From Amphiura filiformis (Eukaryota > Echinodermata > Ophiuroidea > Amphilepidida > Amphiuridae), in NCBI RefSeq assembly GCF_039555335.1, contig NC_092646.1, positions 34,129,380 to 34,193,379 on the forward strand: a stretch of DNA of 64,000 nucleotides, given 5' to 3'. A program made the position numbers and the translations under genes. Shown piece after piece: positions 20,090 to 61,200 of this stretch (position 1 is the first letter of the stretch; each line of letters begins with the position of its first letter). The notes below the pieces were generated by a model that ran no database searches, had not been told where the DNA came from, and saw only the letters and a list, made by a program, of their open reading frames with translations.

Positions 20090-20400
20090 AGGTAAAGTCA
20101 TTCTTCCTCCCTTTCGACATGCCAAAATTTATTCCCTCCCCCGGCCCCGGCTTGCCAAAAAATTGCTTTCTCGAAAGGCTGTGCAATCAGTAGGCCTACC
20201 TGTATTAGCCTACTAATTATAAGCCAAAATTTCCAAGCGACTCGCTAAAAATCGCTTGCCTCCCGTCTCGGCCAGCCAAAATCGCTTGTCCGCACCCCCT
20301 GGACTGCCAAATTTTGTGGCCCCTCCCCTGGCCTGCCAAACTGTGCCCCACCCCTTTGCATAGGCCTAGGCCTATATGCCAATTTTTGGGATCCCCAATT
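20090..20400. repeat. Diverged copy of the C-rich MITE family
   Basis: Repeated TGCCAAAA(T)CGCTTG-type motifs and a GGCTGTGCAATCAG end resemble the MITE at 11738-12167. The ends are too eroded to define. Confidence 0.45.
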
Positions 20401-29815: not shown

Positions 29816-30778
29816 ACCCCTTTAGCATTTATAGTTTCAAACTGGTGTCCCATGTCCGTACATCCCCGTAGGCCTATCAGCCTCTATTTCTACAGGCCTT
29901 AGGCCCTATCACTATGCAGACAAACAGCGGGTACACTGTGTAGGCCCTTATACATTACTCATCCCCCTCAATTATCCCCCTCCTTTCTTCTCTTTTCCTT
30001 TCTTTCTCCTATGTCTGCCTAATACCAAATGCTCATATCGGCCCTAGCTTCATTCCGTAGCCACAATGAAATACCAATATTCCATTGACAGCCAGCCCAA
30101 TATTTTGCTGTTGGCTTAAAATTTAAAAATTTTACTGTATCGCATCTAGAGTATTGGCCTTTTGCTGTGTTTACTTTCTAGAGAATAGATTCAAAAGGCC
30201 ATTTGTAGGTGATGCCGCGACGGTGTACTAGTGGCCGGCCTATAATAGCTTAGTGTTAGGGCCTATACCTTAAGCCCTAGGGCCTATGTCTTAGGCCTTA
30301 CGCCTTCGGCTCTCGGACCTATGCCTCAGGCCCTAGGGCCTATGTCTTAAGATACTCCTTCCCCATTCTCTCCCCTTTTCCCTTTCTTTTTGCTCTTTTT
30401 TCCTTTCTCTCTTTCTCTTTTTTCTCCCCTTCTCCTTTCTTTTCCTTTTTCTCTTCTTTTTGAGCAACCGGCCCTGAGCGGCCCAGAACCAAGCGGCCCA
30501 TGTGGCGATCGCCACAACGCCACAGTGGCCAGTGCGCCCCTGCTCTCATTCCTTTCTTCCTTTCTATGTAGTTATACACTGCTGCTGGTCTGACCAGCTG
30601 TGTTCTGTCACACATTGCCGGATCGACACTACATACAAGAAACGGATGGTATTTTAGTAAATCTGAAGTTGTTCGTCAATGCTCATTGTATGTTCCTTTT
30701 TATATCCTGCTACCATCCGCCAAATCTTTCGTGTTAGGTGATGTTCGTTTAGTTCGTCAGCAAATCCGTTGTTGTTCT
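29816..30778. other. No gene seen; simple CT-rich and AGGGCCTA-rich stretches
   Basis: 30240-30350 repeats AGGCCCTAGGGCCTATGTCTTA-like units; 30355-30460 is pyrimidine-rich. Lysine/arginine-rich minus-strand frames here are by-products of the CT run. Confidence 0.55.
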
Positions 30779-30935
30779 TTACCGAATCGGATAGCAACGT
30801 TTGCACAGTATTTTTTGTGGGACCTGAGAGCACATCAGACACATCAAATTGCATTATGAATACGAGGAATGTCCTTATGATATTAACTAATTTTGATTTT
30901 TTGACATTCGCGATATAATACAATTTTTATGTAAA
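30779..30935 (+). mobile_element. Partial TTAA-family MITE, left arm
   Basis: Starts CGAATCGGATAGCAACG and follows the left arm of 10533-11179 as far as the GATATAATAC block. The right arm is absent. Confidence 0.75.
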
Positions 30936-31241
30936 GAAAGTTTGTAGTTGCCTGCTATATTGAAATGGAATGAATTCACCAAGGCAGTTAAGTTAGTGCC
31001 CCGTGTCATTTATCCCTCCGGCTTTCAAATATCTCCGAACCACAAGATCAGAAAAACACGGGAACCTCCAAACAAACCGATCGCAGCTGGTGGCAAGAAT
31101 TTTCGCATCACTTATGTCGAAGTTCACTTTTCAAAGGGCGAACAGTTGTTATGATAACAAATACGACTGGTACGAAAGGCTGTAAATTATCTCAAAAGAT
31201 ATGAAAATAAACTAGTGCCAAATGGTGGTCATAGACCACAA

Positions 31242-33020
31242 ACCTAGCTGGGGCGTACGTGTTGGTGTTGTGGAGGTATCTGACCCCTGCAAAATGTTCC
31301 CCTGATCATGAGATTTGTTGTCACCGAGTTTGAGTCCCGTACTTCTTACAGATGTTCAGAAAATGCTATTTTAAGATTTGACCCCAGATGACCTTTAACC
31401 TGACCCCTACAAAATGTTCCAAAAATGTTCCCCTGTTCATCTAGTTTGTTGTCACCGAGTTTGAGCCCCGTACACCTTATAGATGTCCAGAAAATTCATT
31501 TCTAAGATTTGACCTCTGTATGACCTTTGCCCTGACCTCTGCAAAATGTTCCCCTGTTCGTGAGATTTGTTGTCACTGAGTTTGAGCCCTAAACCCCTTA
31601 CAGATATCCAGAAAATTATATTATAAGATTTGACCCCATATAACCTTTGACCTGACCCCTGCAAAGTGTTCCCCTGATCATTAAGTTTGTTGTCACCAAG
31701 TTTGAGCCCCATACCCCTTACAGATGTCCAGGAAATGCATTTCTAAAATTTGACCTCTGCATGACCTTTGACCTGACCCCTGCAAAATGGTCCCCTGGTC
31801 ATGAGATTTGTTGTCACCGAGTTTGAGCACCATACACCTTACAGATGTCCAGATAATGCAATTGTAAGATTTTACCCCTTTAATGACCTTTGACCCCAAT
31901 TCTGTATGCAAGTTATAGGCGTGTAGTATAGCCGATGCATATATGCAAATGACATCATTGTACTATATAATATGTGGTAGAAGAAGCATTTTGAAGGTAT
32001 TTGGTAAAATACCAGAAATGCCCCCTTAATGACCTTTGACCCCAATTCTGTTTAGACACTATGGGCACTGGACATAGCCGATACATATGTGCAAGTTACG
32101 TAATTGTAGGGTGTAACATGTAGGAGAAGAAGCATTTTGAAATTTGTTGGCAGAAGAAAGAAGAATCGGAGAGCATTACAGTACCTAGCTGGGGGTGTAA
32201 ACCCCCCAGCTAGGTAAAGAAAGAATTGGAAAAAAGACAGAACAAGCCGACGTTCGTCGTCGGCTTGTAACTAGTTTGTTGTCACCGAGTTTGAGCCCCG
32301 TACGCCTTATAGATGTCCAGAAAATTCATTTCTAAGATTTGACCTCTGCATGACCTTTGCCCTGACCTCTGCAAAATGTTCCCCTGTTCATGAGATTTGT
32401 TGTCACTGAGTTTGAGCCCCAAACCCCTTACAGATATCCAGAAAATGAAATTATAAGATTTGACCCCATATAACCTTTGACCTGACCCCTGCAAAGTGTT
32501 CCCCTGATCATTAAGTTTGTTGTCACCAAGTTTGAGCCCCATACCCCTTACAGATGTCAAGGAAATGCATTTCTAAAATTTGACCTCTGCATGACCTTTG
32601 ACCTGACCCCTGCAAAATGGTCCCCTGGTCATGAGATTTGTTGTCACCGAGTTTGAGCACCATACACCTTACATATGTCCAGATAATGCAATTGTAAGAT
32701 TTTACCCCTTTAATGACCTTTGACCGCAATTCTGTATGCAAGTTATAGGCGTGTAGTATAGCCGATACATATATGCAAATGACATCATTGTACTATATAA
32801 TATGTGGTAGAAGAAGCATTTTGAAGGTATTTGGTAAAATACCAGAAATGCCCCCTTAATGACCTTTGACTCCAATTCTGTTTAGACACTATGGGCACTG
32901 GACATAGCCGATACCTATGTGCAAGTTACGTAATTGTAGGGTGTAACATGTAGGAGAAGAAGCATTTTGAAGTTTGTTGGCAGAAGAAAGAAGAATCGGA
33001 GAGCATTACAGTACCTGGGG
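31242..33020. repeat. Satellite-bearing element: 120-bp units in an 830-bp duplication
   Basis: The phrase TTGTTGTCACCGAGTTTGAG recurs about every 120 bases (near 31316, 31446, 31568, 31688, 31809, and again 32276-32639). The block 31443-32180 is repeated at 32273-33015, an 830-base offset. ACCTAGCTGGGG occurs at 31242 and again in the hairpin at 32183. Minus-strand frames of 72-92 codons with repeated QGSGQR motifs arise because 120 is a multiple of three; I do not treat them as genes. Confidence 0.8.
32183..32268. other. Two strong hairpins at a duplication junction
   Basis: ACCTAGCTGGGGG pairs with CCCCCAGCTAGGT across six bases (32183-32214). ACAAGCCGACG pairs with CGTCGGCTTGT across five bases (32242-32268), followed by AACTAG then T. 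A GC-rich hairpin just before CTAG-T is what a Helitron 3' end looks like, but no 5' TC end was identified. Confidence 0.7.
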
Positions 33021-34014
33021 AAATTGCGACACTGACTTGCTAAGATCTGTCACCCTTGCGAGTGAAAATACAGCTTATATTTAGCCAATGTCAACATAGG
33101 GTATAATATCAGGACAAATATTTTCCTAATATATCAGACTAACACCACAGCTATATGCACTTTACAATGTGAAGGAAATAGGAGAAGGCACTTATTTCCT
33201 AAGTCACGTATATGACCCACTTTTAAAGACTGGAGACAAGACCAATCACAACCGGAAGTCAGTTTCCCGGAAGAGTGGATCAGATGGTCACATCTGATGA
33301 AGTTCTTTGACGTGTAGGACGAAATGTTAGAGTAATAAAAAGTAAAAACTTACTGGTTTTGTCAAGCGAAAATTGCTAATTGATATGATTTATAAAACCT
33401 GATGAATCTATTCACTGGGATTTTGTCTTATTATTTGCCATTTTGCTGAAATATTAGCAACATCCATCCGCACGACATCCGATTTTATTAAGTTTGCACT
33501 CCAACCCACTGTATTTTCGCAATGACCTTTTATGGTACAACTTTGCTTGACTCATTTAGGTGTTTTACCCGGGTGTTTTGCCTGTGTGAGATCTGAATAT
33601 GAGAACATTCTGCACGAAACTAGCCATTTCCCCATTGAAAACTGTATTATAGACAGTTAGTATAAATGCTTAACCATATACGGTATAGGGAAAAAGAATA
33701 TTACTCCTTTTAGTCCCCACCAAGTGAACAGCGGGCATTGACAGTTATATTGCAACGCAAGCGAGACGAGCGAAAACTCGCTGGACCGGTTCTCGGAAAG
33801 AAGCATATTTCCTGCTTCACTCAAATGATGGACTGGTGTAAATAATGCCTTGTTTAGATAACTCACACTGCTTCCTTAATAATGTTCTCGACTATACCGG
33901 GGAGTATAACAAAATACCAAAGTATGCATAATTAAATCAACTATGCAGCTTGAAACATATTGGTACCCTTTAATCGTTGTCATGATTTGTAAAGCGTGGA
34001 CATGATTAAACAGT
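33021..34014. other. No gene seen
   Basis: No recognisable coding sequence or repeat. Confidence 0.5.
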
Positions 34015-34022
34015 AATCATGG

Positions 34023-35015
34023 CAGGGGTGCAAATTGTGATTTCTTCCTCAGAAGCAAGGTTTTTTAGGCTCAAGATTACCTCAATCATACCAGACATAA
34101 AATGGCTTTATTCTGTACTTCAAAAGATGAGAATGGTAACATAGCATGTATTTTTAGAGCAACATTATGTTAAGTCTTCGAGCTTCCAAAAAAGGCCTTA
34201 TCTGAAGTTATGAGGATAAAAAATGTTATTTTACTCTAGTTTGTGGTCAATTTTTGTGGGACACAGGATCCTTTCTCCTTTTCGTTTCCTTTGCCCATCC
34301 CCCAATTTCCTCTTTCATTTTTTGTCAGAGGGAGCACAATTTGTTCAGTGCTTTATGGTTCTTCTTTTTGAATTTCCTCAATATTTTTCAGGTCGTCCTC
34401 TCCTCACTGGCATTAGTATTGATACACTGAATTCCATCATGATTTTTGTTCCCAAATCCTCATTGCCGCCTCTCTATTAGTTTCCTCAGATATGATTGCC
34501 GCCTCTCTATAAATTTCCTCAGTTATGTGCCCTAGTGCCCTAGTTATGTGCACCATGTGCCTTCACCCAACTTCTTTTTTTCCTGTTATATTACATTGAA
34601 TAGCTTCTCTGGTGATGAATTGTAAACTTCCCTATATGTATTATAACCTAATTTCCGTATTCTAACACCAACATTTTCCTTTTTTGCTATTATTTCTTGA
34701 AAAATCAGATGAATTCCTCCAAATGTTGCACAACAATGTCTGGAGATTTCCTCTCTTCCATTCAGTTTAGCTTCACTGCCTCACAATAATAATTAATTAC
34801 CTTTTCCTGAGATCTGTTTCCCTCAACGTAATCTTCAACCTCATGCCTCTTCTTTTTCTTTCCTCTTCCCCCCCCTCTTCCTCTCCTCTTTTATTTTCTT
34901 CTCCCTCCCTGTTTTTCCCTCTCTTTCCTTTTTCTTCCCAAGGCATTATTTCCTCAATTTTGACTGTCATTTCCTAGGAGCGGTGCTCCCCGCTCCCGCA
35001 CAATTTGCATCCCTG
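34023..35015. mobile_element. hAT-type element with perfect 8-bp duplication, 993 bp
   Basis: Ends CAGGGGTGCAAATTGTG and CACAATTTGCATCCCTG are inverted. AATCATGG flanks both sides (34015-34022, 35016-35023). The interior is pyrimidine-rich and non-coding. Confidence 0.92.
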
Positions 35016-35261
35016 AATCATGGTAATAGTCAAAGTACAGAATAAGAATGAAAAGGACACATTCATTAAAATCTAGGACATGTGCAGGGGATTTTAACCC
35101 CTAATTTTGCTTACTGACAAAAATGTCTAGAACAAATGTGTTTGACAGGAGACATATGACTTCATTATAATGCGTGAAACGAGACATTGTTAACATGATG
35201 TAAATCATTACATCCAGTCACAATTTACACGTACCACCTTTTAGCGTGCGAAGCACAGAGG

Positions 35262-35555
35262 AGTAAGATAAGACAGAGCGCGTACCACCAGTCAAAGTCT
35301 CCGCCTCATCCGATAATGAGGGCCGATTGTTCTGTGAAATGCGACAGGCGAGACTGCTACGCAATTACCGCGTATTTTCATGGTCTATCGCGTAATCGCG
35401 AAAGCACGCAACGCTCTATCGCGGATACGCGAAGGCACGCAGCGCTGGCGTGATTGTTAGACACTACACGATCGAACAATCGGCCCTCATGAATATGCGA
35501 GAACTTACACCATACAATACACGGGGACTTTGACTGATGGTACGCGGTCTGTTTC
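35262..35555. mobile_element. CG-rich foldback element
   Basis: GCGTACCACCAGTCAAAGTC and ATGAGGGCCGATTGTTC near 35279-35335 recur as complements at 35480-35550. The centre holds two ~31-base tandem units (CTATCGCGTAATCGCGAAAG and CTATCGCGGATACGCGAAGG starts). Confidence 0.7.
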
Positions 35556-37723
35556 TCTTTCGTCCATGGTGCGAAGAGGGGACCAAAACACAGAGACGAA
35601 GGAAACTACTTTCTTCCGCATATTTACAACCAACCCCAGACAAACAAGAACCTTGTATGTCTATGCAACCAACCCCTTGCAACGCCATCTACGTCAACTC
35701 CAACCGGAAACAGTCGTCGTGGTGCAGGAATTGTTTAGTCAATTTGAGAAGGCTTTAAGTCTGAGCACGAAACAGTAATTGAGGTAAAAGTGTCACACTA
35801 ACCCAAATTTTGGATTTGCATAACAGAATCTCTGAAACAAAATTGAGGTCTACTGCCAGGGTGCACTGATCTGCCAGGAAGCACCGAAAGGTCAAAGGAG
35901 CACTGCCATCTCAAGGCGTAGCGCTCCCAACTCACACATGCAAATCATATTGAAAAAATACAAAAAAAGGCATCAATACAAGCTAATCGTCACGATCTAT
36001 AGAGTGAGATTTTAGTTGCGATTTGAAAGCAGACTTGCTACAAGTGAGATAAGAGTCTCTGATATCGGATGGAGTAGCAGACCACAATACCGGGAAATTG
36101 ACTAAAAGACATCTGTTTCAGGAGTGATTGATTGTTTACTTTAAAAAAAGTTAAAGTTTCATGTCTAGTATTATTAAGACACCACCTGGAAAAAGATAGA
36201 GATTTGTACATGGCATTATAGTGAGACATGAAGAATCAAAAGAAATAGACGAATAAAGTTCTGAGTCTGGTCTCATATGATTGATCCCCATACGTTGACA
36301 AAGAATTGGCCTATATTGTAGCACGATGCTGTATTTGGAAGAGATGGTCGAAAGGCCAACAAGGCCATCATTGATCATCCTAAACAGAAACTAGAGCGGT
36401 TCTCGGCTTTCACGGTTCTCGGGTTTGGCGGTTATTAGCTGATGTTGGTGTTAGATGGAGAGTGGTAGTGTTTGGAAAACGTGTGTGGTTGTAGCTGGTT
36501 GTATACTGTTTCTGTTCAGAACCTTGTGTGTTTGGACGAGTCGATGGGTCGGGCATTTGGTAATATTGGGAAATTAGACTGTTTGGTTTTAAATATGGAG
36601 AGAGATGACATAGTTGGAAATTGCTATGAAAGTGTTTACAAAAAACATTTAAAGAAGAGTTAAATATTAAAATGGATACAACAATAACATAATATAATTG
36701 TAGATTGTTTTTCGAGTTTCGGCAATTATTGATATTGACTTATGCTATGGTTTTATTACAAGGTGTAAAAACAGAACTGATACAGTAGACCTAGGAAGAA
36801 AAACATAATTTTAAGGTGTTTTACGCTTTTCGGATTATGTTGATAACTGAACAGGCCTTTCAGGAAGTAATACAACATATGAGCATGGACTGTTAACATG
36901 GTTAAAGAATATATGAAAATAAGTGTAAACTTTTTAAATTACCCCAATGCAGTGCATGTCTCAAAAATTCTATTACTATGTGGAATTGTCATAGGTTTTT
37001 ACACTTTTAAATCATGAAAAATAGAAATATGAATAGAATTTTGAAATTTTGACAACTATTTTGATACTTGGCTAGTCTTCAGTTGGGCATGTTAGGAGAA
37101 ATAATATAGAAATATTTCATCATACATTAAAACAACAGCATGGTGTATGTTTTTTAATGGTTCTTCAAAATCATCATGGACGATAGTGTAATATTTGAGT
37201 TAAAGTTTATCTGTACCGTAATGATTGCCTGTGTTAATATTGTTGGTGACAAAATGATGAATTGAACATTTGACAATACAAAAATGTCAGTGATTGCCGT
37301 CATATATATGTGTTCCTCAGTCCTTTAATAGAAATATGAGGAGCTCACTTATTTGTTCTCCTGGAATTATTCAGGAGCTCAACTTTTGAGCACCTAAAAT
37401 TGCACCCCAGGGTGAAATTTCAAACTTGCTCAAATTGTGTTAAATACCATTCCAATGTATTCCTCTAGACTCCCTCAAGCATTCAGAAATTGTATAGTTT
37501 GACCTATCTAGGACGTACCATTCTTGAGTCATAACCAAAAAGGTCAAATGTCACGTTTTTGTCTCTATGGGGATCCAAAATAAATCAAAGTGCTCTGATT
37601 ATGTCTAAATAGATAAGTTTGATGCACCAATTGAGCCAATTATGAGCCCCCCGGGGTAAAATTTCGAACGGCTGGCCAAAAATCGCTTCCCCCCCCACAT
37701 CATGAGCGCATAGCGCGAAGTCC
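35556..37723. other. No gene seen
   Basis: Overlapping short frames on both strands at 35464-35778 and 36038-36378 match no family I know. The rest is AT-rich. Confidence 0.5.
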
Positions 37724-37726
37724 TTA

Positions 37727-38081
37727 GACCGTGTTTCTGGGATTTGTCAGATTTTTTGTATTTTTTTTTTTTATAGATTTTTCTATTTTTTTAGACTTTG
37801 GAATGATTTATGAAATGTTCATACATACAAATAAGTTTATTAGAGAACAAGCATCACTTCCAAGTCTTTTTGTGGTACTCTAGGGGTTTATCCTCAGAAT
37901 CTCACATTTGAAAAAAAAAAAAAAAGGGCCTCGTCGTTTCCTCAAGCACTGTTGGAGAAGACCGAAAACTACTGACAATGCTAATTTTACATTGAAAAAA
38001 AAAAAAGAAAAGACACCTCCCTCCCTCATCAATTCATGAAAATCCTCTGGACGAGAATCAAAACATTAATTTTATACGGCC
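37727..38081. mobile_element. PIF/Harbinger-type MITE, copy 1, 355 bp
   Basis: Flanked by TTA on both sides (37724-37726, 38082-38084), fitting the 3-bp TWA target of PIF/Harbinger. The left end GACCGTGT is a one-base variant of the GGCCGTGT end of copy 2 (50183-50576); the right end is ATACGGCC. The interior matches copy 2 closely (for example ATGATTTATGAAAT, ATCACTTCCAAGTCTTTTT). Confidence 0.85.
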
Positions 38082-39094
38082 TTACGGCCGGGGTCCAGCT
38101 CTGGGGTTCTAGATGCTCTCTGGTGCAATCTGAGTCCTTATTTGGAGCCTCCGTTTCACAAAATTTATGACCAATATTTCAAGAAATATATCCAGAAATG
38201 TTCAAAATCTTCATTGTGAAAATGTGTCTCAGTAAATTTTTGTTCCAAAATGGCAATATGACTAGTTCCCCACGTAAACTTGTATGGCTCAAAATTCGGA
38301 CCGCTAGACAGATCTAGTATCAGTTTGTGAATGAGGACATCGTATAAGTTCCTTGTACTAAATATGACTATCTGAGACGAAAATTGCCAAATGGGTATTT
38401 GAGTTTTTATTTTTTGCCAATACTTGTTGCAAACTTTACAGGTAGCTTTAGTTTAACTGCCTTAATCCCGTCAGAGTCGTATTGCCAATTGTACGTATCG
38501 ATCAACTCTTGTTTCCATTTCAAAAGAGTTGCCTTTGAAACAGACCTAGTAGACGACGCATCTGGAGCCTAATTCATGAATCGGTTCCAGACACAGAATG
38601 TTTTTTTCCAGTTCATGCAAGCAATCCAGAATTTCCCTCCAGTATGACATATATTTCCCATACCGGTATGTATTTCTTTAATTTTTTGGTCAAAAACCAA
38701 AAATTTCCATGCAATGAGCTTCCCGTATTACCCACTTTTTCCTGCCATGACAGAATCAGTGAATATGACATGATAAAACTACAGGCTTTTACAAAATCAA
38801 ATCATGAAAATTAATAAATTTAAGCTTAACAACCGGTTAACAACTCATGAACCAAGTTATACGTTTACAGTTATTTATAAATGATGACAGGCAACAAGTA
38901 CTGGCAAAAGCTTACAAACTAATCGTGTTATACCCCCTGTTTGAGTCCTGCAGCCATTAATTCCCCGTATGAGTTCATTTATAATTCTTTTTGGTGCGGA
39001 TAAATCTCCCGATATTCATGTATTGCTCCCAAATAAACACACACGCTGTCACTGGCATCAGCAAAATTGTTATACCGACGTGCTCCATAACCCG

Positions 39095-39260
39095 TTTTGT
39101 GATTGGTTGCACAGACGATTTTACTAAATCATAAGCCAATCAATGAATGCGACGGCCTGGTTTGGCAGCACACAATTGTTGGCAGTGAAGCGAAGTACGA
39201 ATTTTCTGATTGGTCGAATAAACTACTAAAATATTGGCTAAGCCAATCAGCGTGCTCGAT
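39095..39260. promoter_or_regulatory. Cluster of four CCAAT/ATTGG motifs
   Basis: GTGATTGGTTGC, AGCCAATCAATG, CTGATTGGTCG and AGCCAATCAGCG occur within 165 bases. They match the NF-Y (CCAAT-binding) core with its preferred flanks. No transcript start or neighbouring gene supports promoter use. Confidence 0.3.
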
Positions 39261-40189
39261 ACATAACAAACAACCACGTTGGGTTTAAATGGCCTACGAT
39301 ACGCGATCGAGGGGATTTCCCGTACTCGTGTAAATCGATAGGTGATATCCCGGTGTACGTGTGAGCAATTGATGGTTTGTTTGAATGTAAATGTTTTATT
39401 TCTTTTCTCTTGGTTTCTTTCTGTCTATTCTTTTCTTTTCTTTCTTTTATGTTTCTTGCATTTCTCTTTATTATTTTTGTTTTATTCTTCTTTCTTCTAC
39501 GCGAATCAACTTCAAATTTGAGTCTATAAATGCATGTTTTATATTTTTACTAGTATTAAAATTTTAAATGGTTCTCTTAATTTATTTACTATTTTGTTTA
39601 CTTCTAATTAACATATGAATGAAAAGTTAGTTAACTTACGGGGGTGATCCAGAGATGAAACAAAAATTCGTTTGCTAATACTTGATAAAAAAAAAAGTTA
39701 ATTATTACGTTTCTGTACTGATTTTGAAATCTGGATGAGCTTCATAGTAAAAAAAAGAAGATTACAATTTAGCGATTTTACCGGGCGATTTTATTATCAA
39801 ACATATAACTAAAATTTGCCGACAAGCGGGCCGACAAGTCACAATAAATCAGAGAAGAAAAGGCCTATTGTTAGACAATTATGAACATTTATTAAGATAA
39901 AACGTGAAATTTGCACAGCGAAAATTTTCATACCTAAACTTGAAAGACTTAAAATATATCCTTGTTTCGAAGTTTTCGTCTCAGTGATGGGCAATCCTAG
40001 TTAATATTCTTTACCAAACTTGAATAATGTCCTATAACATAATTCAAAACATTGCAAGCAGAGAACGATGCCTGGAACGAAAAATTTTACCATTACAAAA
40101 TCAGATACATGTTCGGGACATGAGAGGGTGTCACTATGCTAATAGGCTGTAATGTAAACTTACGTCATGCAGCTTGTGAAGGTGGACAC

Positions 40190-40395
40190 GCCGCTAATTG
40201 GTCAAACTTTTGCTATGCAACAGGCTATTGACTGGTCAGAATTGTGCCGTCAGATGTGTTTACCAATTATCAAGTCTGTCGGCGGCGTGGAGATATGCAC
40301 AATAAATTAGTATAAAAGCCAGGCGACTCTAGAGCGAGCCAATGAAATCCAGCGACACTTTTATACTTTGGAATTGATCAACATTGATTGGTTCA
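40190..40395. promoter_or_regulatory. Possible core promoter: TATA boxes with CCAAT motifs
   Basis: TATAAAAG at 40311-40318 and its complement CTTTTATA at 40358-40365 are flanked by CTAATTGGTC, AGCCAATGA and GATTGGTTC. No convincing coding sequence follows on either side. Confidence 0.25.
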
Positions 40396-41007
40396 ATGCT
40401 AGTCTGACCTCCGTATAATCTAGTGACCTAGTCTCAGTGTTACCGGACAAAATGACAGATCTAGCCAGATTTATCTTGGCTCTAGCGCCCAAACATACAC
40501 CCATATGTTAAATACCCACCCACTGCAACGCCTTTTAGTGTAGGATAGGTAGGGATAAAAGAGTTGCCGATGTACATAATTAGCAACCAGTATTGGGTGA
40601 CCGGAAAGCTGTTCAATGCCTTTGCTGTTTTTTTGGGTGTTTTGGTTTTTAATTAATTTCTCTGTTTCTACATCTCTGGTACGATTCAAATACAATAGGT
40701 GTCATCATTAGCACACACTTTACATATCCTGAAAGTGTCACTGACCAAAAATACTTCGTTTGTCTGCTTTTTTGTATACAAGAAACACATGGGGCATCTG
40801 TTGGTGTGTTGTTACCCAAACACACAATGATACAATAATTTTACCGGTATCGTTCTGTATTCATTTCTATAATATGAAAATAATTAAAAAAAACCACTGT
40901 ACTGGACTTAGATCCAGTTTGGGACAACCTACTCATACCCAAGACCACCGGGGTTGACGTCATCTCCTAGTGTGACGGCATTCAAGGTTGTTAACAAGCC
41001 GTAAATC

Positions 41008-41430
41008 CAGGGGCGTAGCCAGCTTTCTTGGTCAGGGGGGGCAAAATAAAATTTTGGGGGCACAGACGAAAAAAATTGCAGTTGCATCATACAATACATA
41101 GAGACTGTATGTCTTCGAGCTTCCCGAAAAGGGCCTGATTTGGATGATGTGCGCGCGTAGCGCGAAAAAATGGTATTTTACACTATTTTCGCCCAGTATC
41201 CGGCTAAAAAGGGCTTTATTGTTACAATGTGCGCGCGTAGCGCGAAAAATTTTGTATTTTACACTATTTTGGCCCTGAATTTTGCTAGAAAAGGGGCTCC
41301 TTGCCCTTTTTCTTTTCCTTTGCCCTCCTGATTTTCTCTTTCATTTTTTGTCAGAGGGGCACTTTTTCTTTCATTTTTTTTTGTCAGGGGGGCACTCTGC
41401 CCCCTGCCCCCCCTGCTGGCTACGCTACTG
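41008..41430. mobile_element. hAT-type MITE with perfect 8-bp duplication, 423 bp
   Basis: Ends CAGGGGCGTAGCCAGC and GCTGGCTACGCTACTG are inverted. CGTAAATC flanks both sides (41000-41007, 41431-41438). Inside, a ~75-base unit containing GTGCGCGCGTAGCGCGAAAA is tandemly duplicated (about 41150-41270). Confidence 0.93.
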
Positions 41431-41438
41431 CGTAAATC

Positions 41439-43081
41439 ATCACAGCCATAACATCTGGCTGAGGACGCAGTTGGAACTGTGAAAGCGCTTCCGGTAAGCG
41501 ATCAAATTTTAAGTATTGTTGAAGTCAAAAAGTCTTCTAAATTTAATAAAAGCCTTTCCTACCATGTCTACTGACGATACAATTATTATCGTACTTTCGT
41601 ATATTCATTTGTTTACTGTTTGAAATTAATCTAGAGATGTAAAGTAACAAAACAAGACGGTAATGTCATATCAGAAAATATAACTTCAGCTGTTTTTGAG
41701 CTGTACCACTTACTGCAAGATTGTCGCTATTAACTTTCCGTAAACGAGAAAACAAAAGGTCATATCAATATGCTGAAATAAGTACCCACATTCGGGTAAT
41801 AATAGCTACTGATGCTCTAATAAAATATGTAATGTCTTCCCAGATCAGGTTCAATTATTATTGCCATTATTGTTTTTATTAATCATTCCATGATCAGTAG
41901 GCAAAGTATACAATAATGGCATGTCGTTTCGTGAAATAGAACTAGAATCCCATTTACCTTTTTATATCAATTTATATCATTGTGATATATCAAATATCCG
42001 AATGTTAATTTTATGGGGTAATTGTCCTATTTCAAGAGTGATCATTGTTCCATGTTGACACGGTAACAGGAATAGTTGCTCTATTGCTGTGTTGTTGTTT
42101 CTTTTAGTCATATAATCCAAATTAAATATCAAAATCATCACATAATAACAAAAGTTGAAGGATGATCATATAAAATGTCAGTCCTAATTTTCAATCTTTT
42201 AATTCGCATTCAAACATGAAGAAAATATAAACATTTAAGATGCAGACCACAACGGCGTGCCAAGAACTACGAGCACAGCGATATAGCCATAAAATTCCCG
42301 GCCCAATATTTGAAGACCGATTTAAAAAGACTAGTTTGCGTCTGACGTCAGGGCAAAGGCGCTGCGTGATTGGTTGCTGACCTGGGCAGTATGGCATTTT
42401 TTTTGGTCTGGTTGACAGAACGTCATACGCAAGGTAGTCTATTTAATTCGGTTTTCAATTATAAATTGACTGATTTTGTATGTATTAAGCATACGGCACT
42501 GGATATATGTCGCATAGACCCAGTGCTGTACCATCTGCACCCCATGGATACGCCCCTTAACCTTATGTGTGTTTGTATTTTGCATTTTCTTACTTTAAAA
42601 CGAACCTTTAGTACGCCTTAAGCCTATCCACTCTTACCTTACACCTGTCCCATAGATAGGTGTACACTGTGGTGGTACGTCCGCAATTAAAAACTATCCC
42701 CCACAAGGCGACGTTACATATATTGCCCATCCCCCAGAAGATACTCCGCACACACCCACTTTTATACCATAAGACCTAAAAAATAACCTTCTGATGAAAA
42801 TGTGTCTCGGTAAACATGGTACACTAAAGACAATATTATTTCCAAATCTAAAATTAACGGAAGCATACCCCGGGAAGCATACACTATAAAATGCGTATAA
42901 AGGTATTAAACATTCGATGTCAATCCAAATATGTCAAATCCCTAAAAAACCCTGATATTTTGAGTGTTCCATACCTTAACACTTTGAATCCACTTCTTCC
43001 ATATGGATGTTTAAATTCTCTTTAGGTCTGGTAAAGTTTGTACGTAAAGACTCTCATTTTTCATATAATGTTTTTTTTTAG
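41439..43081. other. No gene seen
   Basis: Short unrecognised frames only. An ATTGG motif at about 42369 recalls the CCAAT clusters. Confidence 0.5.
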
Positions 43082-43167
43082 CGCAAGACTCGGAGTGAGG
43101 AAGGAAAATATGAAGAAATCTTATTCAGCTCACACCGAAGCGCTCGATAAAGTGATTGATAAATTGG
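43082..43167 (+). CDS. Possible internal exon, unrecognised
   Basis: A T-run ending TTTTTTTTTAG precedes and a GTAAGA donor follows this 86-base stretch, which is open in the frame reading RLGVRKENMKKSYSAHTEA. The spacing suits a small internal exon. No family is recognised and no partner exons were found, so a chance match is likely enough. Confidence 0.2.
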
Positions 43168-44790
43168 GTAAGACAACTGTGTATTTCGGCCAATGTCAAT
43201 TTGTTAGAAATATACGAATTATATTGTCAAATACTAAAAGTCAAGAACGCAGTAACTTGTACTGCGTGAGCAAGCAAGAGCTGTTTTGATAATTCAGTAT
43301 GATTTCATCTTATGTGATATGTATATAAATATATGAATATAATATTAGACATTAACTTTCAAGACCACATTAATCTGAGTAAGGACACAAATGGAAAGGT
43401 TTCCATAAAAAAAACCGCACAGTTTCCACCTCGATACATCTAAGCACACATTTTCGTCCAAGAGCTCTCAAGCAAGCAGTGAATTGTCTTCACACAGTCT
43501 TTGATTGCACTAGACATTGCATAGCATCGTAAGAGCTGTGGAGTTTCTAGCTGGAAATTGGTCCTCTGTGATATGGTTTTTGTCGAAACCTCAAGTGTTC
43601 CCTTCATCCAATCAGATTTTTTTTTATATCAAACGAAAGCTAACAATGTAGGTTTTAAAAGTCAAAACCTCAAGTGTTCCTTACAATATTTTCAAATTTT
43701 TCACGAAATGAAAAATCACACTTATATACTAGCGTCATTAGAATGAGCAATTCTCTATAAATTGCAAATCTTGTGGAAAAAGTTACTATTTTCGTCTGTT
43801 TTGTGAAATTCAATGAACTATGACTTTGCTAAAAAGCGCTTACAAATTGATATGTGAGAGGGTGAGCAGGGGGCACACGCTCAAACTCATCAGTGACCTT
43901 GTATGTACAATTGACTAAAATGAATAAAATTCAATACTCACTCATTGGTTTCACAAAAATAGTTACAATCCCCGACTCAAACTCATGCACAAGAACATAA
44001 ACCCAACCACCCAACCCATGTAAATATCACACCTCACATTCTCCCACCCCACACACCCTATCGGGCACCACAAACCCTAACTCACGTCACATCCACAATC
44101 AGACACGTCCCTAAGCATTAGCAATATGTGGTTTTATATGCGCAAGATGGTATCAAGAAGACACTTTCCTTATCAACAAGCCAAATTAGTTACATGAATG
44201 CATGAATTTACATGATGACAACGCAAAGTAAATTAAAAGGAAATGCAACAGGTAATAAAATTGCATTGCCTCAAGCGGTTGTCAACGAGTAACAGATTGC
44301 ATCGTAATATATATATCATTAGTTATAAAGGTTTCATATCAGAGTATACCAAATTCATCATCATGTCAAAGCCCCGGGTCTCTACTGCCGATAGTTTTAT
44401 ACTCTAATAATTATTGCGAATATTCGCAATAATATTTATATATATTTTTTGCACTAATATGCTTCCGCACTGTTCAGATTTAATTCAAAATTTAATTCAA
44501 TTGCACAGTCAGTGCTAGTAGTTGTGAGATAGTGTAGGCTAGTACAAGGAACTTATAAGTTGTCTCTGGACAACTTAAATGGCGAGCGGTTCGAATTTTG
44601 AGCCATAGCCTACAAGTTTACGTGATGCATGATGCAGTCATGTCTACAGTAGAATTCAATTCGACCTTTGCAGGACTCAAACCCCATTAAAAGCTATTAA
44701 ACCAAGATAACACTCATTGAAAACAGCTCAACTGATTAAATCATATCTTCTCTGGTTAAATACACACATCATATGTTTCTGCTTTTACAC
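43168..44790. other. No gene seen
   Basis: Contains the 44540-44630 block that matches 38270-38365 in inverse orientation. Otherwise featureless. Confidence 0.5.
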
Positions 44791-45847
44791 GGGGAAGGTG
44801 GGGCATAACGGAACCCCGGAACGGAACACTTAACTTCAAGGATGCTCTGTGACGTCACCATAAGTAATATGACTGTAAAAATTATATGTTCAGTAAGATT
44901 GTATTTAACTTTAATATACCATTAACCAATATAACTTGAATCTTACAGTTTTTTTATAAAAATGAAGAAATATTTTCAAAAAAATAAATCCGTTTTGCCC
45001 CACTATCGGGGCAAAACGGAACCCCCCTATGGGGCAAAACGGCACCCTGGGTGTAAACTTATATCAGTAGTTCCATCGGTAGGCCCTAGGCCTAGTTATA
45101 TGTAGGCCTATATTCAGTTACAATATTAAGTGGGCCTACCATCTCTGTGGAGTGAGTGGTTAACTTCTTATAGACCTAGTAGGCCTATAATATGTATGAC
45201 CAATATTTGATTAGAAAGAAATATTAAGTAGGCCTACCCATCTCTGTGGAGTAAGTTAACTTTTATCATTAATTCTACCTGTAGGCCTAGTTTAATATGT
45301 CTATGTTTCAGGGAAGTGTTTACCATGCTCGAGTAGGTCCCTAGATAACGCCTACATTTCCTTGAGTGAAGACGTATTTATGTACAATTGGGGCAAAACG
45401 GAACCCATCTGTGGGGCAAAACGCCCGGGGCAAAACGGAACCCTGTTCCGTTATGCCCCACACTAGGGGTTCCGTTTTGCCCCATACCCGATTTTTTAGG
45501 AATAGGTTGCATGCATAATACATTGTAGCATATAGCCCATGCAGTACATACAGCTCAAAGCTAGTACCTTAGTGTTTACATATACACAATTATTTAAGAA
45601 TCCGATATTAATGAAGTAAAATTTCAGTACATTAAACATCTGCATATCTTACGTCAGACAGGTTGTAATTTTTTGACTCGATCTTGCTCGGATGTCAGTA
45701 GATTGTTTCAGATCAAATTTTTGTTGTAAATCTGGGTGGTCATACTTGTGTTCCTCGATATAATTTGCATAGACGACAGTATTACCAAGGCCTATTTTTC
45801 CCGTGGGTCCGTTTTGCCCCGGGGGTCCGTTATGCCCCACCTTCCCC
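44791..45847. mobile_element. TIR element with GGGGCAAAACGG repeats, 1057 bp
   Basis: Ends GGGGAAGGTGGGGCATAACG and the complementary CGTTATGCCCCACCTTCCCC are perfect over about 20 bases. GGGGCAAAACGGAACCC or its complement recurs near both ends and in the middle (45000-45050, 45390-45485, 45810-45825). The centre has a duplicated block (45123 and 45218, AATATTAAGT...CATCTCTGTGGAG). TACA occurs next to both ends, one base off on the left, so the target duplication is uncertain. Confidence 0.8.
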
Positions 45848-46004: not shown

Positions 46005-46661
46005 CAGACTTAACACGGTTTGGAAATAATTTCTTCATATTTTTTGGTGTTATCTGTCGTTTACATATCCTTCCTAAAACACCAAAGTACGAATATTTCC
46101 AAACATCTAAATTAGCTAAAATTTTAGGACATGTTACAAAACTAGCCTAGGCCTATATTGTCTAGAATTTTAGAAGAGTACTTTTAATATTGGCCGGTTA
46201 TTTTTCACACAGCGACGTTAACTAGGCAATGTACTATTACCTATAACATTAACTAAAACACCAAAGTACGAATATTTCCAAACATCTAAATTAGCTAAAA
46301 ATTTAGGACATGTTACAAAACTATATTTTCTAAAACTTTAGAAGAGTACTTTTAATATTGGCCGGTTATTTTTCACACAGCGACGTTAACTAGGCATATC
46401 CCCATACTTTTAACGTAGGCTATTTGTAGAGGTCACGCGTCAATGGGAAAGAGCACTGTGTATTCAGCATCGAAGTGGTTACGTAATTCTCTTGGTTACC
46501 GGATCACGCTACTTTGGTATGCCTTCGAGTGCCATATACTTTATGTGGTGATCATTTCGATCGTGGTTCATTACTCTAGCGCGTGATCCCGTTGACATAG
46601 TAACATTACGTAACTTCGATACTGAATTATGTATAGGAAAACGGACAGTAACTGCAGTATG
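46005..46661 (+). repeat. Duplicated repeat, copy 1
   Basis: Matches 49754-50647 in the same orientation. It contains an internal dimer: the CACCAAAGTACGAATATTTC ... GCGACGTTAACTAG unit occurs twice. Copy 1 carries a 160-base insertion (46465-46624) that is missing from copy 2. It lacks the Harbinger MITE that copy 2 carries. Confidence 0.85.
46465..46624. mobile_element. 160-bp TIR insertion absent from the sister copy
   Basis: Ends CAGCATCGAAGTGGTTACGT and ACGTAACTTCGATACTG are inverted. The sister repeat at 50615 reads straight across (GTGTATTGTGTATAGG). ATT occurs at both junctions, a probable 3-bp target duplication. Confidence 0.8.
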
Positions 46662-48367: not shown

Positions 48368-49199
48368 AGTATCGCCCAACGCTATAATGCGGCCATTTGC
48401 GTCAGGCCCGCGACACTCCGGCACTTGTTGGAAGACATGAAGTACAGCAGACAGTTACATGTACAATGTGATTTTCTCATTTATAATTAGGATTACGTCA
48501 TTGCCAGAATGCCAGAGCTTGTTTCATTTGTTCATTAGAATGATTGACAGCGGTGGGCGGACTTATACTCTAAAAATGTGATTCTCTAATAAATTATAGG
48601 TCACTAGGTCAATTCGGACCGTCTCTTTCTCAGATCTCTATATGTAGGACTCTATGGTATCTTCTCATTACACGTTCGTAGTAAGACTTGGCCGGCGACG
48701 ACGCTTGCGAATTGCATGTCTTCAACTGCTGTATAGCATGGTATAGGCAGTTTGTACAGAGTGTCGCTTCTCTATCTCTTTTTCTCGGTTTGCGTCCTTG
48801 TGGTGCATGTTTCATGGATATTTTATCATAGTACTACAGAGTGTTTTACTTCATTATTCTAGTATCTGATAGTCGTGTATGCGTGTAAAGAGTAAGTATT
48901 TTAAACTATACTTTCTGTTTTTCTAATAATAATTATATGCGTGTTTAACATTCTGCTACTTTTATATTTCCACATTTTGTCAGAATAAATCCCGTATCAC
49001 GCTCTTTGTCTTGGCTCTTAATCTTGTTTTAATACTAGTGCTACATGTACATGTAGTAGTGGGGAGCATTTTTAGTTACAATGTATGTCACATGTAGGCC
49101 TACATGTATATATATATATAGGCCTATATATAATTATGTAGGAAAATGCATGTAGCCTAGGACCTAGACCTGCAATCTTGGCACGTCCAATGGGCGACA
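48368..49199. other. No gene seen
   Basis: No recognisable coding sequence. A (TA)n run with two TAGGCCTA octamers lies at 49095-49130. Confidence 0.5.
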
Positions 49200-49753: not shown

Positions 49754-50647
49754 CAGACTTAACACGGTTTGGAAATAATTTCTTCATATTTTTGGTGTTA
49801 TCTGTCGTTTAGGCCTACATATCCTTCCTAAAACACCAAAGTACTGACGAATATTTCCAAACATCTAAATTAGCTAAAATTTTAGGACATGTTACAAAAC
49901 TAGCCTATATTGTCTAGAATTTTAGAAGAGTACTTTTAATATTGGCCGGTTATTTTTCACACAGCGACGTTAACTAGGCAATGTACTATTACCTATAACA
50001 TTAACTAAAACACCAAAGTACGAATATTTCCAAACATCTAAATTAGCTAAAAATTTAGGACATGTTACAAAACTATATTTTCTAAAACTTTAGAAGAGTA
50101 CTTTTAATATTGGCCGGTTATTTTTCACACAGCGACGTTAACTAGTCATATCCCCATACTTTTAACGTAGGGCTATTTGTAAGGCCGTGTAAAATTAATA
50201 TTTTGGTTCTCGTCCCTCCCTCCTCAATTTCTGGGATTTGTCAGATTTTTTTTTTTTTTTTTTAGATTTTTCAATTTTTTAGACTTTGGAATGATTTATG
50301 AAATCTTCATACATATAAATAAGTATAATAGAGAACAAGCATCACTTCCAAGTCTTTTTGTGGTACTCTAGGGGTTTATCCCTCAGAATCTCACATTTGA
50401 AAAAAAAAAAAGGGCCTCATCGTTTCCTCGAACACAAATAGAAGAAAAAACCGAAAACTACTGACAATGCTAATTTTACATTGGAAAAAAAAAAAAAAAA
50501 AAAAAAAACACCTCCCTCCCTCATCAATTCATGAAAATCCTCTGGACGAGAACCAAAACATTAATTTTATACGGCCTAAAGGTCACGCGTCAATGGGAAA
50601 GAGCACTGTGTATTGTGTATAGGAAAACGGACAGTAACTGCAGTATG
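49754..50647 (+). repeat. Duplicated repeat, copy 2
   Basis: Direct repeat of 46005-46661, interrupted by the MITE at 50183-50576 and lacking the 160-base insertion of copy 1. The ends do not look like LTRs (no TG...CA, no primer site), so this is a dispersed repeat or segmental duplication. Confidence 0.85.
50183..50576. mobile_element. PIF/Harbinger-type MITE, copy 2, 394 bp
   Basis: Ends GGCCGTGTAAAATTAATATT and AATATT-like/ATTTTATACGGCC are inverted over about 33 bases. TAA flanks both sides (50180-50182, 50577-50579). The empty site is present in the sister repeat at 46427-46431 (TTTGTAGAGGTCACG). Confidence 0.9.
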
Positions 50648-57111: not shown

Positions 57112-58231
57112 ATGGCAGCGGGAGGAGCAACTGACAAACCAATTTATTGGAACATGGAATTATGCAAAAATTCACCTGACGATCAACTTAACAACCAAAG
57201 AATACCGTTTGCAAGTGTTCAGGTCAGCTACAAAATGTCAAAAAAGTTGAAGTCTGAAGGATTAGAAGATGATACAAATGAGAAGTTTGAAGGATTAGTG
57301 GATGTAAAAAAGAAGTTTGAAGGGTTAGAGGATGTAAAAAAGGTATGTATCGCATTCCTCAACAACAGTTCAGGCGGTATGATTCAACTGAACAACAAAA
57401 ATAATTCAGATGGCCAAACTGTGCCTTATGCTGAATTTGATGATGGCTTAATAAAATGGCTGAATCAAAGAGGACAAATGACAAACTACATATGGTACGG
57501 AGCAAAAGGGAGTCGACTCAATGCAAAGCGTCGTATTTTTATCAAACCAGTGCAACAAGAACCTCTGGCCTACCAGTCCTGCGTGTTTGCAAAAACACAG
57601 AACAGCGTGATCATGATAGACAAATCAACAGAAATAACTAAGATAGCCAAAGGAAAACACAAGTATGCAACCTCTCTGCCCTTGGAATCGCTACCCAATG
57701 CGGTAATTTGCGGACAAGTTCTTAAAGATTTTCCAGAAGATATTCTGATAGAAAACAAAGGCCCTACAAAAGAAGTCACTTTTGATAATCATAACAATGA
57801 CAAAAGCGGGCAAGCTCTACCTCGGTACGTATCTGCATTTGCCAACACTAACGGGGGACATATATTATACGGAGTTCATGATAAATCACTGAAAGTACAA
57901 GGCATCAAATTTGATGAAAAAAAGGTAAAAGGAAACATTGACAGAATAATCACGAGCATGGTGTGGTTTGTTCCTGCAGAGGGGCGTCAAATGTCAAAAG
58001 GAGACATCGGCAAGTATTACAGAATCACAATCATACCCGTCAAGGAAGCTAAGGATGGGAAAGATGGTGTGCTTGTTGTGACAGTGATGCGCCCACTCGG
58101 AGCTGTTGTGTTTTCTCATACACCGATTGTTCCTTTTCTATTGCCGTATGAGCAGGGCGAAAACGTGATTCAGTACATGAACTTAACGAAGTGGTTCGAA
58201 GCTTTGTTGTCAAATAAGGATCCCAAACAAG
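57112..58231 (+). CDS. Schlafen-family core domain protein, one exon
   Basis: The frame encodes the two-lobed Schlafen N-terminal core, known in mammals as an RNA-binding or tRNA/rRNA-cleaving module. Lobe 1 has KVCIAFLNNSSGGMI (residues 77-91, compare VCxxLNSGGG); lobe 2 (AlbA_2-type) has LPRYVSAFANTNGGHILYGV (236-255) then HDK. Acidic residues E214, E221 and D257 fall where catalytic Glu/Glu/Asp sit in rat Slfn13, though the first two are spaced more widely. The zinc-ligand blocks (HxC and CC) are absent. Residues 58-77 contain a repeated KFEGL(V/E)DVKK. The ATG directly follows a strong acceptor (TTTTGTTTTTCTAAG), so a 5' UTR exon probably lies upstream. CAAG/GTAAGG at 58231-58232 is a good donor, so the frame onward to 58275 is likely intron; later exons were not found. 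A retained-intron short form ending at 58275 is the alternative. Confidence 0.75.
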
Positions 58232-61200
58232 GTAAGGCCCAATTTCTAGAGTCATATCATGACTTCTTTGCTTAAGAAAATAATTGCTTAGATTTGATAC
58301 AGGTAACCACTTTCAAAATTATTTTCTTTTCTGAAAATAGATATCGTAGGAAGACAATTCGTGTTCATAGTGCTCCTAAAATGTAAAGGTCTAAGGAGTC
58401 TTGTATCATTATTTACAAAGTCTTATTAGTAATAGTTTTATTCTGAGCCAAAAGAAAACCTTTGCTGTAGGCCTATGTGTTTTAATTTTGTATCACATGC
58501 ATGAACTGGCTCTTTTTTCAGAATCAATTCATTTTGAAAGCTTACTATCATCAGATTTTGTTTAAAATTTGGATATGTGTTCTTATGCAATAAATTGTTC
58601 ATTAAACCTTCTAATTCTATTAGACCTTTTTCCCATCTTCCCATCATGCACTATTCCAGGGGTGATGACGTAGTCAATCAACCTCATAGATCGTGTGCAT
58701 CTGATGGTCTTTGCAATAATTTTGTCTTAATATGGGCAATTGGGCATACTGGTTCCATATTATGTAAAGGCCACCGATGTTACTATAATGAAAGACAGAG
58801 ATAAAAAGAATTTATCGCGTCTGATGTCACTGTCAATTACGATTGCTTTACACAGATTAAATAGCGCGTACTAAAAGGAAGGCCAGTTTATCTGGTGCCG
58901 ATCGGAGTAAAGGAATAGCAGAAAATGGCGAAAAATTACGCACTTTTACAAGGCAAAAAGCAACTTTTCTAGATATTGTTGACATGGTGCCTTCGTGAAA
59001 GAAAGTTTCATACTATAAAGACCTAACTTTTGAGATGGTTTGTATGTTTGAAGGTGCAAAATTAACAATGAATAAGGCGCCCTGTTATACCGCCGCGTTC
59101 AGCAAGTCATCATCACGATACTTATAATCAAACCGTGCTCGAGTTTTTTAGTACCAAAAAGGGTTAACACTACGTTTTACTTTTCTTAACTTTGTGACGA
59201 GTCCCTGAATGAATGAATTATTTAGAATATCCCCAGGCCTATTTAAATCTTTAAGGTTCTTTATAGAACCTATTTAAATCTTTAAGGTTCTTTATAGAAC
59301 GTTTTAAGGTTCTTTTAGAACCTTATTACTGCTTAGGGTTCTACATACAGGACAAAAAAGGTTCTAAGTAGCACCTGTTTTTTTCTGAGAGTGTGTGTAA
59401 ATAATTGTTTGTTATGTTGAATCTTTGTTTTCCATATACCATGTATACATTTCCTAAAAGCTCTTTTGTTACTTTTGACGAGATGGTGCCGGTGGTAATA
59501 CTAATTCAAAACTGCTCATTATAAGTAGTTATAAGTGACCCTTCCTGCATTCTTATAAATACTGTAATTAAAAAAATAAAAAAAAATATGAAGCTACCGG
59601 TATTGAGGATGAAAGGCTTTTTTAAAATACTTATTCAATTGAATATGTCGGTCAGCAGACAACAGTGTGAGACAAGAAATATTATTGCCCAATACGCACT
59701 GTATACAATATGGAATGTCATAACTTTATGCATCTTGATCTACATACTATATACATGTAGTAGATATAAATAGCGTTTGAATTACGCGGCCCTGTGGTGA
59801 ACCTGGCTAGGGGTCAAAGGCTAATAGCATTTTCAGAGCTAGTGTAACCATATACCATGGTAACATGTGTAAATACTGGGGTATATTATAAATGAAATGT
59901 AAATTTCCCTTTTCATGTGATGAAAGAAATAACGTTTGAAAATATAACATGTATGCCTATAATCCCTACAAAAAATATTAGGCAAAAGAACATCTGTAAG
60001 TATATTGCACTGTATTTTTCTAATATTGGGAGTTTTACTATTGATGATAAATCAAATGGCACAGACAATCTGAAGAAAATAATATTAGACTAGACTTGAA
60101 TTAGTACTGTTTTGTATTCATGAATTTCATATAGGTCTTACTTAGTTATGTGTAGGTCAAGAGTAAATAATATATGTTGTTGCTCTTCTGGGCCAATTTT
60201 TTAACTTGTTGTTGACCACCATTTTCAACTGCCTCTCATCAAATGATCCCCGGAATTGATCCCTTCAATCAATTAATTTCGCGTCCACTCCTCAATTTCT
60301 GGGATCAGTCCATATTTTTTCCTCTATTATCATATTTAATTTTAAGGTTAGGCCTAATGTTGATAAACAAGTTAAATTTTCACCATGAATCACTTGCAAG
60401 TATTTTTGTAGAACTTTAAAAGAGTCTAACCCTTGGCCTTCATAATCTTAAATATAAAAATAAGGGCCTCATCATTTTCCTGTTAGATACTGAAAACTGC
60501 TAGCACTGTCAATATCACATGGAAACTGCAGTATTTTTTTTTCATTTAGCAAAAAATAAATAAATGTTGGGACATGAAACAAATTGTCAAATTATGTGGC
60601 CTCACCAAACACAGCCCCCAATTTCTGATAATCCAAAAAGTACTTTTCTTCAAATATTTCCTCCTAAAACTTTCCATGGCTTTTTGAAAAAAAAATCCAA
60701 ATTTCGTCAACTTTTATATTTTGACCTCATTGTCCCCACTCCGACGGAAAGATCTAGCTCATTTTGATAAAATGTTTCCCGTGACTCTCACACCCCCTCC
60801 TAAACCTGTCAAATCCTTCCATTTGTTCACCATGTATCCCAATGTGTTATTTTAAAAGGCTTATTTCTAGCTCTATGATTACATTCTTGTTAAACTTCTC
60901 CTCCTACCCCTCATACAGCCCTCCAACCACCACCCTATGCAGATGCACCCATGTCAATGCATATGGGCTTATCCCCAAAGTATTCTTGGGCGGAGTCATC
61001 TTCCACAGCATGGGCACATTATCATTTTTACTGTAGTGGGGTACTGGGGGTGATTTATGTTTGTATGTCTGTGCAAGTGCCTGTTCATATATTGGTGAGG
61101 ATGATCAAATCCACAGCCTATTCCCCACATCAAAATGTAGATTTTTGTTTGCATCAGTAGAAAAATTATTATCATTGACCCTATGAATGCTATGTGAAAG

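Follow-up and report, generated by a model that had tools for sequence, protein, structure and literature searches.

Five- and six-base gains at TA dinucleotides, with only G and C between the flanking TAs, form a real class of micro-insertion in the Amphiura filiformis genome. In the window analysed (the whole 64-kb stretch of DNA), the gains themselves, their GC-only cores, the flanking TAs, the polarity of one case and an excess of the commonest form, the octamer TAGGCCTA, were directly observed. On balance, and by a modest preference, TAGGCCTA and TAGCCTA/TAGGCTA are taken to be the excision scars of a cut-and-paste transposon that targets TA (TA-GGC...GCC-TA), with TACCGGTA and TACCGTA as a second kind left by CCG...CGG ends. 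This footprint reading is the best supported, though unproven, and its main rival is a transposon-free process.

Two copies of a repeat, 46005-46428 (copy 1) and 49754-50181 (copy 2), were aligned with 95.6% identity over 435 alignment columns. The initial annotation had reported that they differ by exactly GGCCTA, and this was borne out as a 6-base gap in the alignment (TTTA------CATA versus TTTAGGCCTACATA). The copy-1 stretch had been placed at 46036-46050; its true place is 46054-46070, the start having been 18 bases off. The features of the pair are as follows.

49810-49817, unstranded: octamer TAGGCCTA in copy 2, a 6-base gain relative to copy 1 (self-alignment).
46054-46070, forward strand: copy-1 counterpart without GGCCTA, TTTACATA / CTGTCGTTTACATATCC, versus TTTAGGCCTACATA in copy 2.
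46143-46155, unstranded: TAGCCTAGGCCTA in copy 1, a putative +5 scar (TA-GCC-TA) and then a putative +6 one (self-alignment).
49901-49907, unstranded: TAGCCTA in copy 2, the putative +5 scar alone (self-alignment).
46320-46329, forward strand: sub-copy 2 of copy 1, ACTATATTTT, the outgroup state without either scar (alignment).

The change at 49810 was probably a gain. A mirror case was found at 46148, where copy 1 reads ACTAGCCTAGGCCTATATT, copy 2 reads ACTAGCCTATATT and the tandem sub-copies of both read ACTATATT. The GGCCTA of this octamer (46148-46155) is missing from copy 2 and from both tandem sub-copies, and since the two outgroup sub-copies lack the insert, a gain is the simpler polarity there. 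The sub-copies at 46253 and 50005 have plain CTATATT as the counterpart of the copy-2 TAGCCTA. The simplest history at 46143-46155 is that GCCTA was gained before the duplication and GGCCTA later, in copy 1. The two repeat copies, 3.75 kb apart, could in principle be alleles misassembled in tandem. Phage records were considered as a match for the repeat, and none matched.

All distinct 4-12-base indels that passed a flank filter were collected from self-alignments of the window (67% to 96% identity). Events were distinguished by position and length, their independence not being proven: 11387 and 24915 probably represent a single event, 9980 was counted at two lengths and the rows at 46142-46145 overlap. 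Four of ten six-base indels had the form TA-palindrome-TA (CCGG at 113; GGCC at 4170, 46148 and 49810), and four of ten five-base indels the form TA-core-TA (CCG at 4804; GCC at 10952, 44606 and 49901). The core was GC-only in all eight of these TA-flanked indels and TA flanked it on both sides in all eight inserted copies, while a GC-only core between TAs was found in none of 22 four-base and none of 11 seven-base indels. The empty partner had a single clean TA in seven of the eight; the exception was 4170, whose left-arm partner has TG in place of TA and which was lost under a stricter flank filter. The cases outside the repeat pair are listed here.

4170-4177, unstranded: TAGGCCTA on the right-hand arm of an inverted repeat, the six bases being missing from the other arm, the left one, at about 159-172.
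113-120, unstranded: TACCGGTA in the left arm of the 1-450/3960-4320 inverted repeat; CCGGTA is missing from the right arm, at about 4211-4228.
4804-4810, forward strand: TACCGTA, putative +5 scar; the paralogue at 976-1038 (80% identical) has plain TA.
10952-10958, forward strand: TAGCCTA, putative +5 scar; the paralogue at 24092-24522 has plain TA. At 67% identity this alignment is the weakest of the eight.
44606-44612, forward strand: TAGCCTA, putative +5 scar; the paralogue at 38271-38360 (75% identical) has plain TA.

The inverted-repeat arms 1-450 and 3960-4320 are about 80% alike in their outer part, which reaches the window start; one arm has TACCGGTA, the other TAGGCCTA, and neither is in both. 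Other TA-flanked indels fell outside the class, namely 47033 (a four-base indel with core GT within a tandem repeat), 10379 (11 bases) and 56394 (eight bases, TCATGA, in a weak alignment). When the twenty 5-6-base events were re-placed randomly within 300 bases, the mean number of GC-core events was 0.067 and the maximum 2; the eight observed were reached in 0 of 20,000 trials.

An aligned paralogue within the window was available for five of the 34 octamers, the other 29 having none. Clean six-base gaps at three of these five (4170, 46148 and 49810) disfavour point mutation as the origin of the octamer. At 45103 and 45229, in a local 77% repeat, the partners are substituted (TATGACCA-like and TGGGCCTA) and not gapped, which fits an older octamer that is decaying. 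The proposal that the octamer arises by insertion with a TA duplication, and not by point mutation, is thus sustained by eight such indels and by the polarity that two outgroup sub-copies give at 46148. Slippage of a TAGGCC tandem repeat was rejected as the main route, as octamers mostly stand alone and an empty site contains a lone TA.

The 34 copies of TAGGCCTA in the 64-kb window compare with a mean of 0.51 (largest 3) in 100 dinucleotide shuffles and with 0.56-0.77 expected under a second-order Markov model, an excess of about 60-fold. The octamer was top of the list of octamers with both-strand counts of at least 8. None of the other 15 NNGGCCNN palindromes exceeded two copies, which indicates that the TA flank matters. 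For TAGG-Nx-CCTA, counts of 34, 10 and 3 were obtained at spacings of zero, one and two bases, versus 0.75 expected. Across all cores, 4-base palindromes flanked by TA numbered 96 versus 29.3 expected (3.27-fold, the remaining 15 flanks ranging from 0.46 to 1.75), and 62 versus 28.8 once GGCC was set aside. For cores in which one of the two pairs is complementary, the TA flank gave 239 versus 160.7 (1.49-fold), CG 24 versus 15.8 (a similar ratio on small numbers) and AT a ratio of 1.27. TA-N4-TA was the top spacing among 25 (586 versus 418-537).

Several related forms were also in excess. TACCGGTA (CCGG core) was counted 4 times versus 0.49 expected and TAGGCCCTA/TAGGGCCTA 9 times versus 0.3; the excess was modest for TAGCCTA/TAGGCTA (13 versus 5.0) and TACCGTA/TACGGTA (8 versus 4.6), and slight for the +4 form TAGGTA/TACCTA (37 versus 27.7). 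TACATGTA (CATG core, 15 versus 2.1), TACTAGTA (CTAG core, 7 versus 0.9) and TATCGATA (TCGA core, 4 versus 0.8, with one-mismatch forms at 48 versus 27) are possibly older scar families. Among other marine animals and in some fish, TAGGCCTA and TACATGTA are probably common as well. Composition immediately 5' of TA was also biased: of 68 flanks, 31 had G there, 24 had A, 8 had C and 5 had T, with 12.8, 23.8, 11.3 and 20.0 expected, respectively (chi-square 37.9, 3 df). The second-largest signal among the 12 flank positions tested was at -9 (chi-square 12.0). Sites with adjoining or clustered octamers are listed below.

20361-20374, unstranded: TAGGCCTAGGCCTA, two overlapping octamers, as if one TA had been used twice.
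45080-45094, unstranded: TAGGCCCTAGGCCTA, a putative +7-type scar adjoining an octamer.
18048-20374, unstranded: cluster of 11 of the 34 octamers within 2.3 kb.

Between dense clusters on either side, 29877-45086 is a stretch of 15.2 kb without any TAGGCCTA. The segment 30237-30342 holds three TAGGGCCTA in 86 bases and several GGCC-rich fragments, and is either a cluster of +7-type scars or a small local repeat. At 49090-49107 there is a perfect 18-base palindrome, ACATGTAGGCCTACATGT, with the octamer at the exact centre of ACATGTACATGT; a general preference for palindromic targets was unsupported (permutation p = 0.29). Among the matches listed from pattern scans for TAGGCCTA in viral contigs (at least 120 stretches) and prokaryote genomes, nothing was recognised as animal DNA. 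The scanned loci, with octamers counted in at least 120 viral stretches, were mostly coding-dense or short tandem arrays, coding density having been profiled for 15 of the 123 loci from viral contigs and for all 27 from genomes. Three contigs from the viral collection or prokaryotes (L067 at 3599-3997, L080 and L142) have several TAGGCCTA, closely spaced or in short arrays, which were judged unrelated to the animal case.

From these scars we infer a transposon, its ends, the length of its overhang and the repair route. The element would insert at TA and duplicate it. At excision, the transposase would cut the 5' strands three bases inside, and a 3' overhang, GGC, would stay on each flank. Overhangs pairing over three bases (G:C, a G/G mismatch, C:G) would yield TA-GCC-TA or TA-GGC-TA (+5), and those pairing over two bases (GC with GC, perfect) would yield TA-GGCC-TA (+6); the perfect two-base pairing would make +6 the commoner scar. 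CCG overhangs would likewise lead to TACCGTA and TACCGGTA. By this reasoning, four triplets permit both a 3-base and a 2-base overlap, GGC and CCG among them. Scars may far outnumber elements, a scar being left at each jump while the element moves on.

Both scar lengths were present for both cores (GGCC/GCC and CCGG/CCG), and every core was palindromic (GGCC, CCGG) or one base short of a palindrome (GCC, CCG). The four +5 cases in ten indels and the absence of +4 in 22 fit a 3-base cut; the commonest form, +6 (34 octamers), needs the route through 2-base overlap. The same +6 scar would follow from a 2-base overhang if both strands were kept, so the 3-base cut is a tentative preference. The resemblance first proposed was to the excision footprint of a TA-targeting transposon with GG...CC termini. 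Of that proposal the anatomy fits, while a TA-flanked GG...CC element was not found in the window. Because 5-base scars occur beside 6-base ones, the ends may be better put as GGC...GCC with a 3-base overhang. As to age, the excess over expectation is 33.4 for exact octamers and 11.3 for one-mismatch forms. Steady neutral decay would make these about equal, so many octamers look young, suggesting a recent origin at roughly a few per cent divergence. The agreement with the burst of mostly DNA transposons reported for A. filiformis, dated to 10-15 Ma ago and peaking at 2% divergence (PMC11310086), is loose. The heterozygosity of the species is estimated at 3.22% in that genome paper.

A parent element was sought in several ways. 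A search of the 64-kb window for TA-GG...CC-TA elements with inverted ends (at least 15/20 alike, up to 6 kb) yielded none. The TA-flanked inverted pairs listed in the window numbered 171; six had GG or CC at an end. Each of the six was part of a longer inverted repeat, fell within a stretch locally rich in GGCC, or was chance-like. One candidate pair resembling terminal inverted repeats, 247/2969 (GGCCTT..GATAGCA), was rejected, as it would straddle one arm of the inverted repeat 1-450/3960-4320. TAGG starts (349, octamers and nonamers removed) were repeated no more than those of ten other tetramers, at 13.6 per 10,000 pairs versus 13.5-17.7, and formed no family. No transposase family was found in the 22 Pfam-scanned of the 40 window ORFs (stop-to-stop, at least 95 aa), three weak matches each being below its cut-off, and Rfam gave no match over the whole window.

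Other features of the window include a 542-aa ORF at 12578-14206 (Pfam SBF) with a 99% match, over 73% of the query, to an ileal sodium/bile acid cotransporter-like protein of Amphiura filiformis, and a 387-aa ORF at 57112-58275 with a Schlafen AlbA_2 domain (E 1.9e-12). A large inverted repeat at 6789-10380 has arms of about 1.5 kb, the main blocks being 89-97% complementary; none of the four ORFs scanned in it had a Pfam family above cut-off.

Further observations count against the footprint reading. Taking the clumped window as typical, its density would amount, by extrapolation, to some 0.8 million scars in a genome of 1.57 Gb. The preference for G/A before TA (55/68) and the rarity of T (5/68) were matched to no known element, and the excess of TAGGCCCTA/TAGGGCCTA is not yielded by the simple overlap model. 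The window scars are also uniform, whereas the rice excisions described in PMC4423477 are mostly messy, 8 of 94 being perfect.

The main rival is a transposon-independent micro-insertion in which a staggered 2-base break at TA would be filled in, G/C added without a template and the ends joined, placing GGCC between TAs; we regard it as a tentative alternative. The parent element missing from the window, the insertion of G/C only and the tandem scars at one site (20361, 45080, 46143 and 18633) all speak for it. Free addition of G/C, however, predicts many cores, and GGCC was found in 34 of 47 TA-[GC]4-TA sites with GCGC or CGCG in none; a polymerase would have to add identical bases every time. 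Somewhat more doubtfully still, the host itself, with no transposon involved, may insert short GC palindromes, chiefly GGCC, at TA sites with TA duplication. One specific 6-base insertion would then be a standing mutation class in this animal lineage, and its density, at 34 in 64 kb, would account for the octamer being the most over-represented in the window. Telomerase-type addition (TTAGGG) at TA ends, which the TAGGGCCTA excess had prompted, was rejected, T before TA being depleted.

It is quite unlikely that the octamer is ancestral and that the copies without it dropped six bases through TA:TA pairing. Such microhomology deletion is feasible given the TA...TA flanks, and polarity was read without an outgroup at 49810, 4170 and 113. 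Against this, chance TA-N4-TA (586) and TA-N3-TA (451) sites are far commoner, and the twenty 5-6-base indels included no loss of a non-GC core. GGCC/CCGG occupy 38 of the 586 TA-N4-TA sites and GCC/CCG 21 of the 451 TA-N3-TA sites, versus 4/4 and 4/4 in the indels; as GC-core sites are rare among chance TA pairs, deletion between TAs would mostly hit other cores. Moreover, the 46148 insert is missing from two sub-copies, and an ancestral octamer leaves the about 60-fold excess unexplained.

That the octamer is a functional site under selection, such as a protein-binding motif, is very improbable. Its strong excess, the few one-mismatch forms and its clustering, with 17 neighbour gaps below 500 bases versus a null mean of 7.8 (maximum 16 in 5,000), would suit such a site. 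The octamer, however, arises by a clean six-base gain within repeats, and further TA-flanked palindromes are also in excess.

The window also contains Harbinger-like MITEs with ends GGCCGTRTAAAATTAAT, and the insertion of one of them sets repeat copy 2 apart from copy 1.

50183-50576, unstranded: Harbinger-like MITE, TAA-GGCCGTG...ACGGCC-TAA, in copy 2; the empty site in copy 1 is 46427-46429 (TAG).

A second copy at 37727-38081 has a TTA duplication and a shortened left end, GACCGTG. The idea that the octamers are scars of these GGCC-ended elements can draw on their ends (GGCCGT...ACGGCC), on the presence of one inside repeat copy 2 and on AAGGCCTA/TAGGCCTT, expected within Harbinger scars and the highest-ratio one-mismatch form (6 versus 1.9), but it is the least credible of all and was rejected, since the duplications are TAA and TTA, not TA, so that a scar would read TAAGGCCTAA or TTAGGCCTTA and not TAGGCCTA preceded by G/A, T before TA is depleted (5/68 versus 20 expected), and elements of this type usually excise precisely (PMC4561436).

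Among known systems, HIP1 of cyanobacteria, which is prokaryotic, is likewise a palindromic octamer in extreme excess, there genome-wide and here in a 64-kb window; it is not known to arise by TA-duplicating insertion. The +5 scar of Sleeping Beauty, TAC(A/T)GTA, is of the same kind as TA-GCC-TA here, and the +4 scar of Tc1 consists of TA and two terminal bases. Sleeping Beauty and mariner are described as leaving 3-base 3' overhangs, with footprints equal to the overhangs and repair by end joining (PMC7827188). As with these elements, the TA target is duplicated and a few element-end bases would be left between the TAs; unlike with them, the scar seen most often is a +6 palindrome, with a density of about 0.5 per kb in the window, the parent element was not found in the window and G/A precedes TA. 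Tc1 of Caenorhabditis elegans leaves small insertion scars, +4 being typical in somatic cells at 78% (Eide and Anderson 1988, cited in PMC13148408). Unlike these scars, no +4 scar with a GC core was seen in the 22 four-base indels; TACATGTA, which would retain both Tc1-type ends, is in excess here (15 versus 2.1).

PIF/Harbinger elements and Tourist MITEs (mPing) share GGCC-type ends (PMC4423477), and such a MITE adjoins the octamer repeat. They differ in having a 3-base TWA duplication, with mostly precise excision (PMC4561436), whereas the octamer duplication is TA. A TWA duplication was not found around the octamer, T preceding TA in 5 of 68 flanks and G/A in 55 of 68. ISL2EU elements, for which the 25 families studied were all in animals, usually have ends starting with GG and duplicate AT within A-AT-T (PMC4482050), unlike the TA found on both sides of the core in the eight inserted copies. 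In the titles and abstract openings of the papers listed from the literature, no description of a TAGGCCTA excess or of GGCCTA insertions was found.

Should the octamers be footprints, the scars of a low-copy transposon can be far more numerous than its copies, and octamer counts would preserve, like fossils, past jumping that escapes repeat libraries. The pairing of +5 and +6 scars would then be a direct readout of the joining of 3-base overhangs in animal germ cells. Otherwise, an animal genome would be under the shaping influence of an insertion mutation not yet described.
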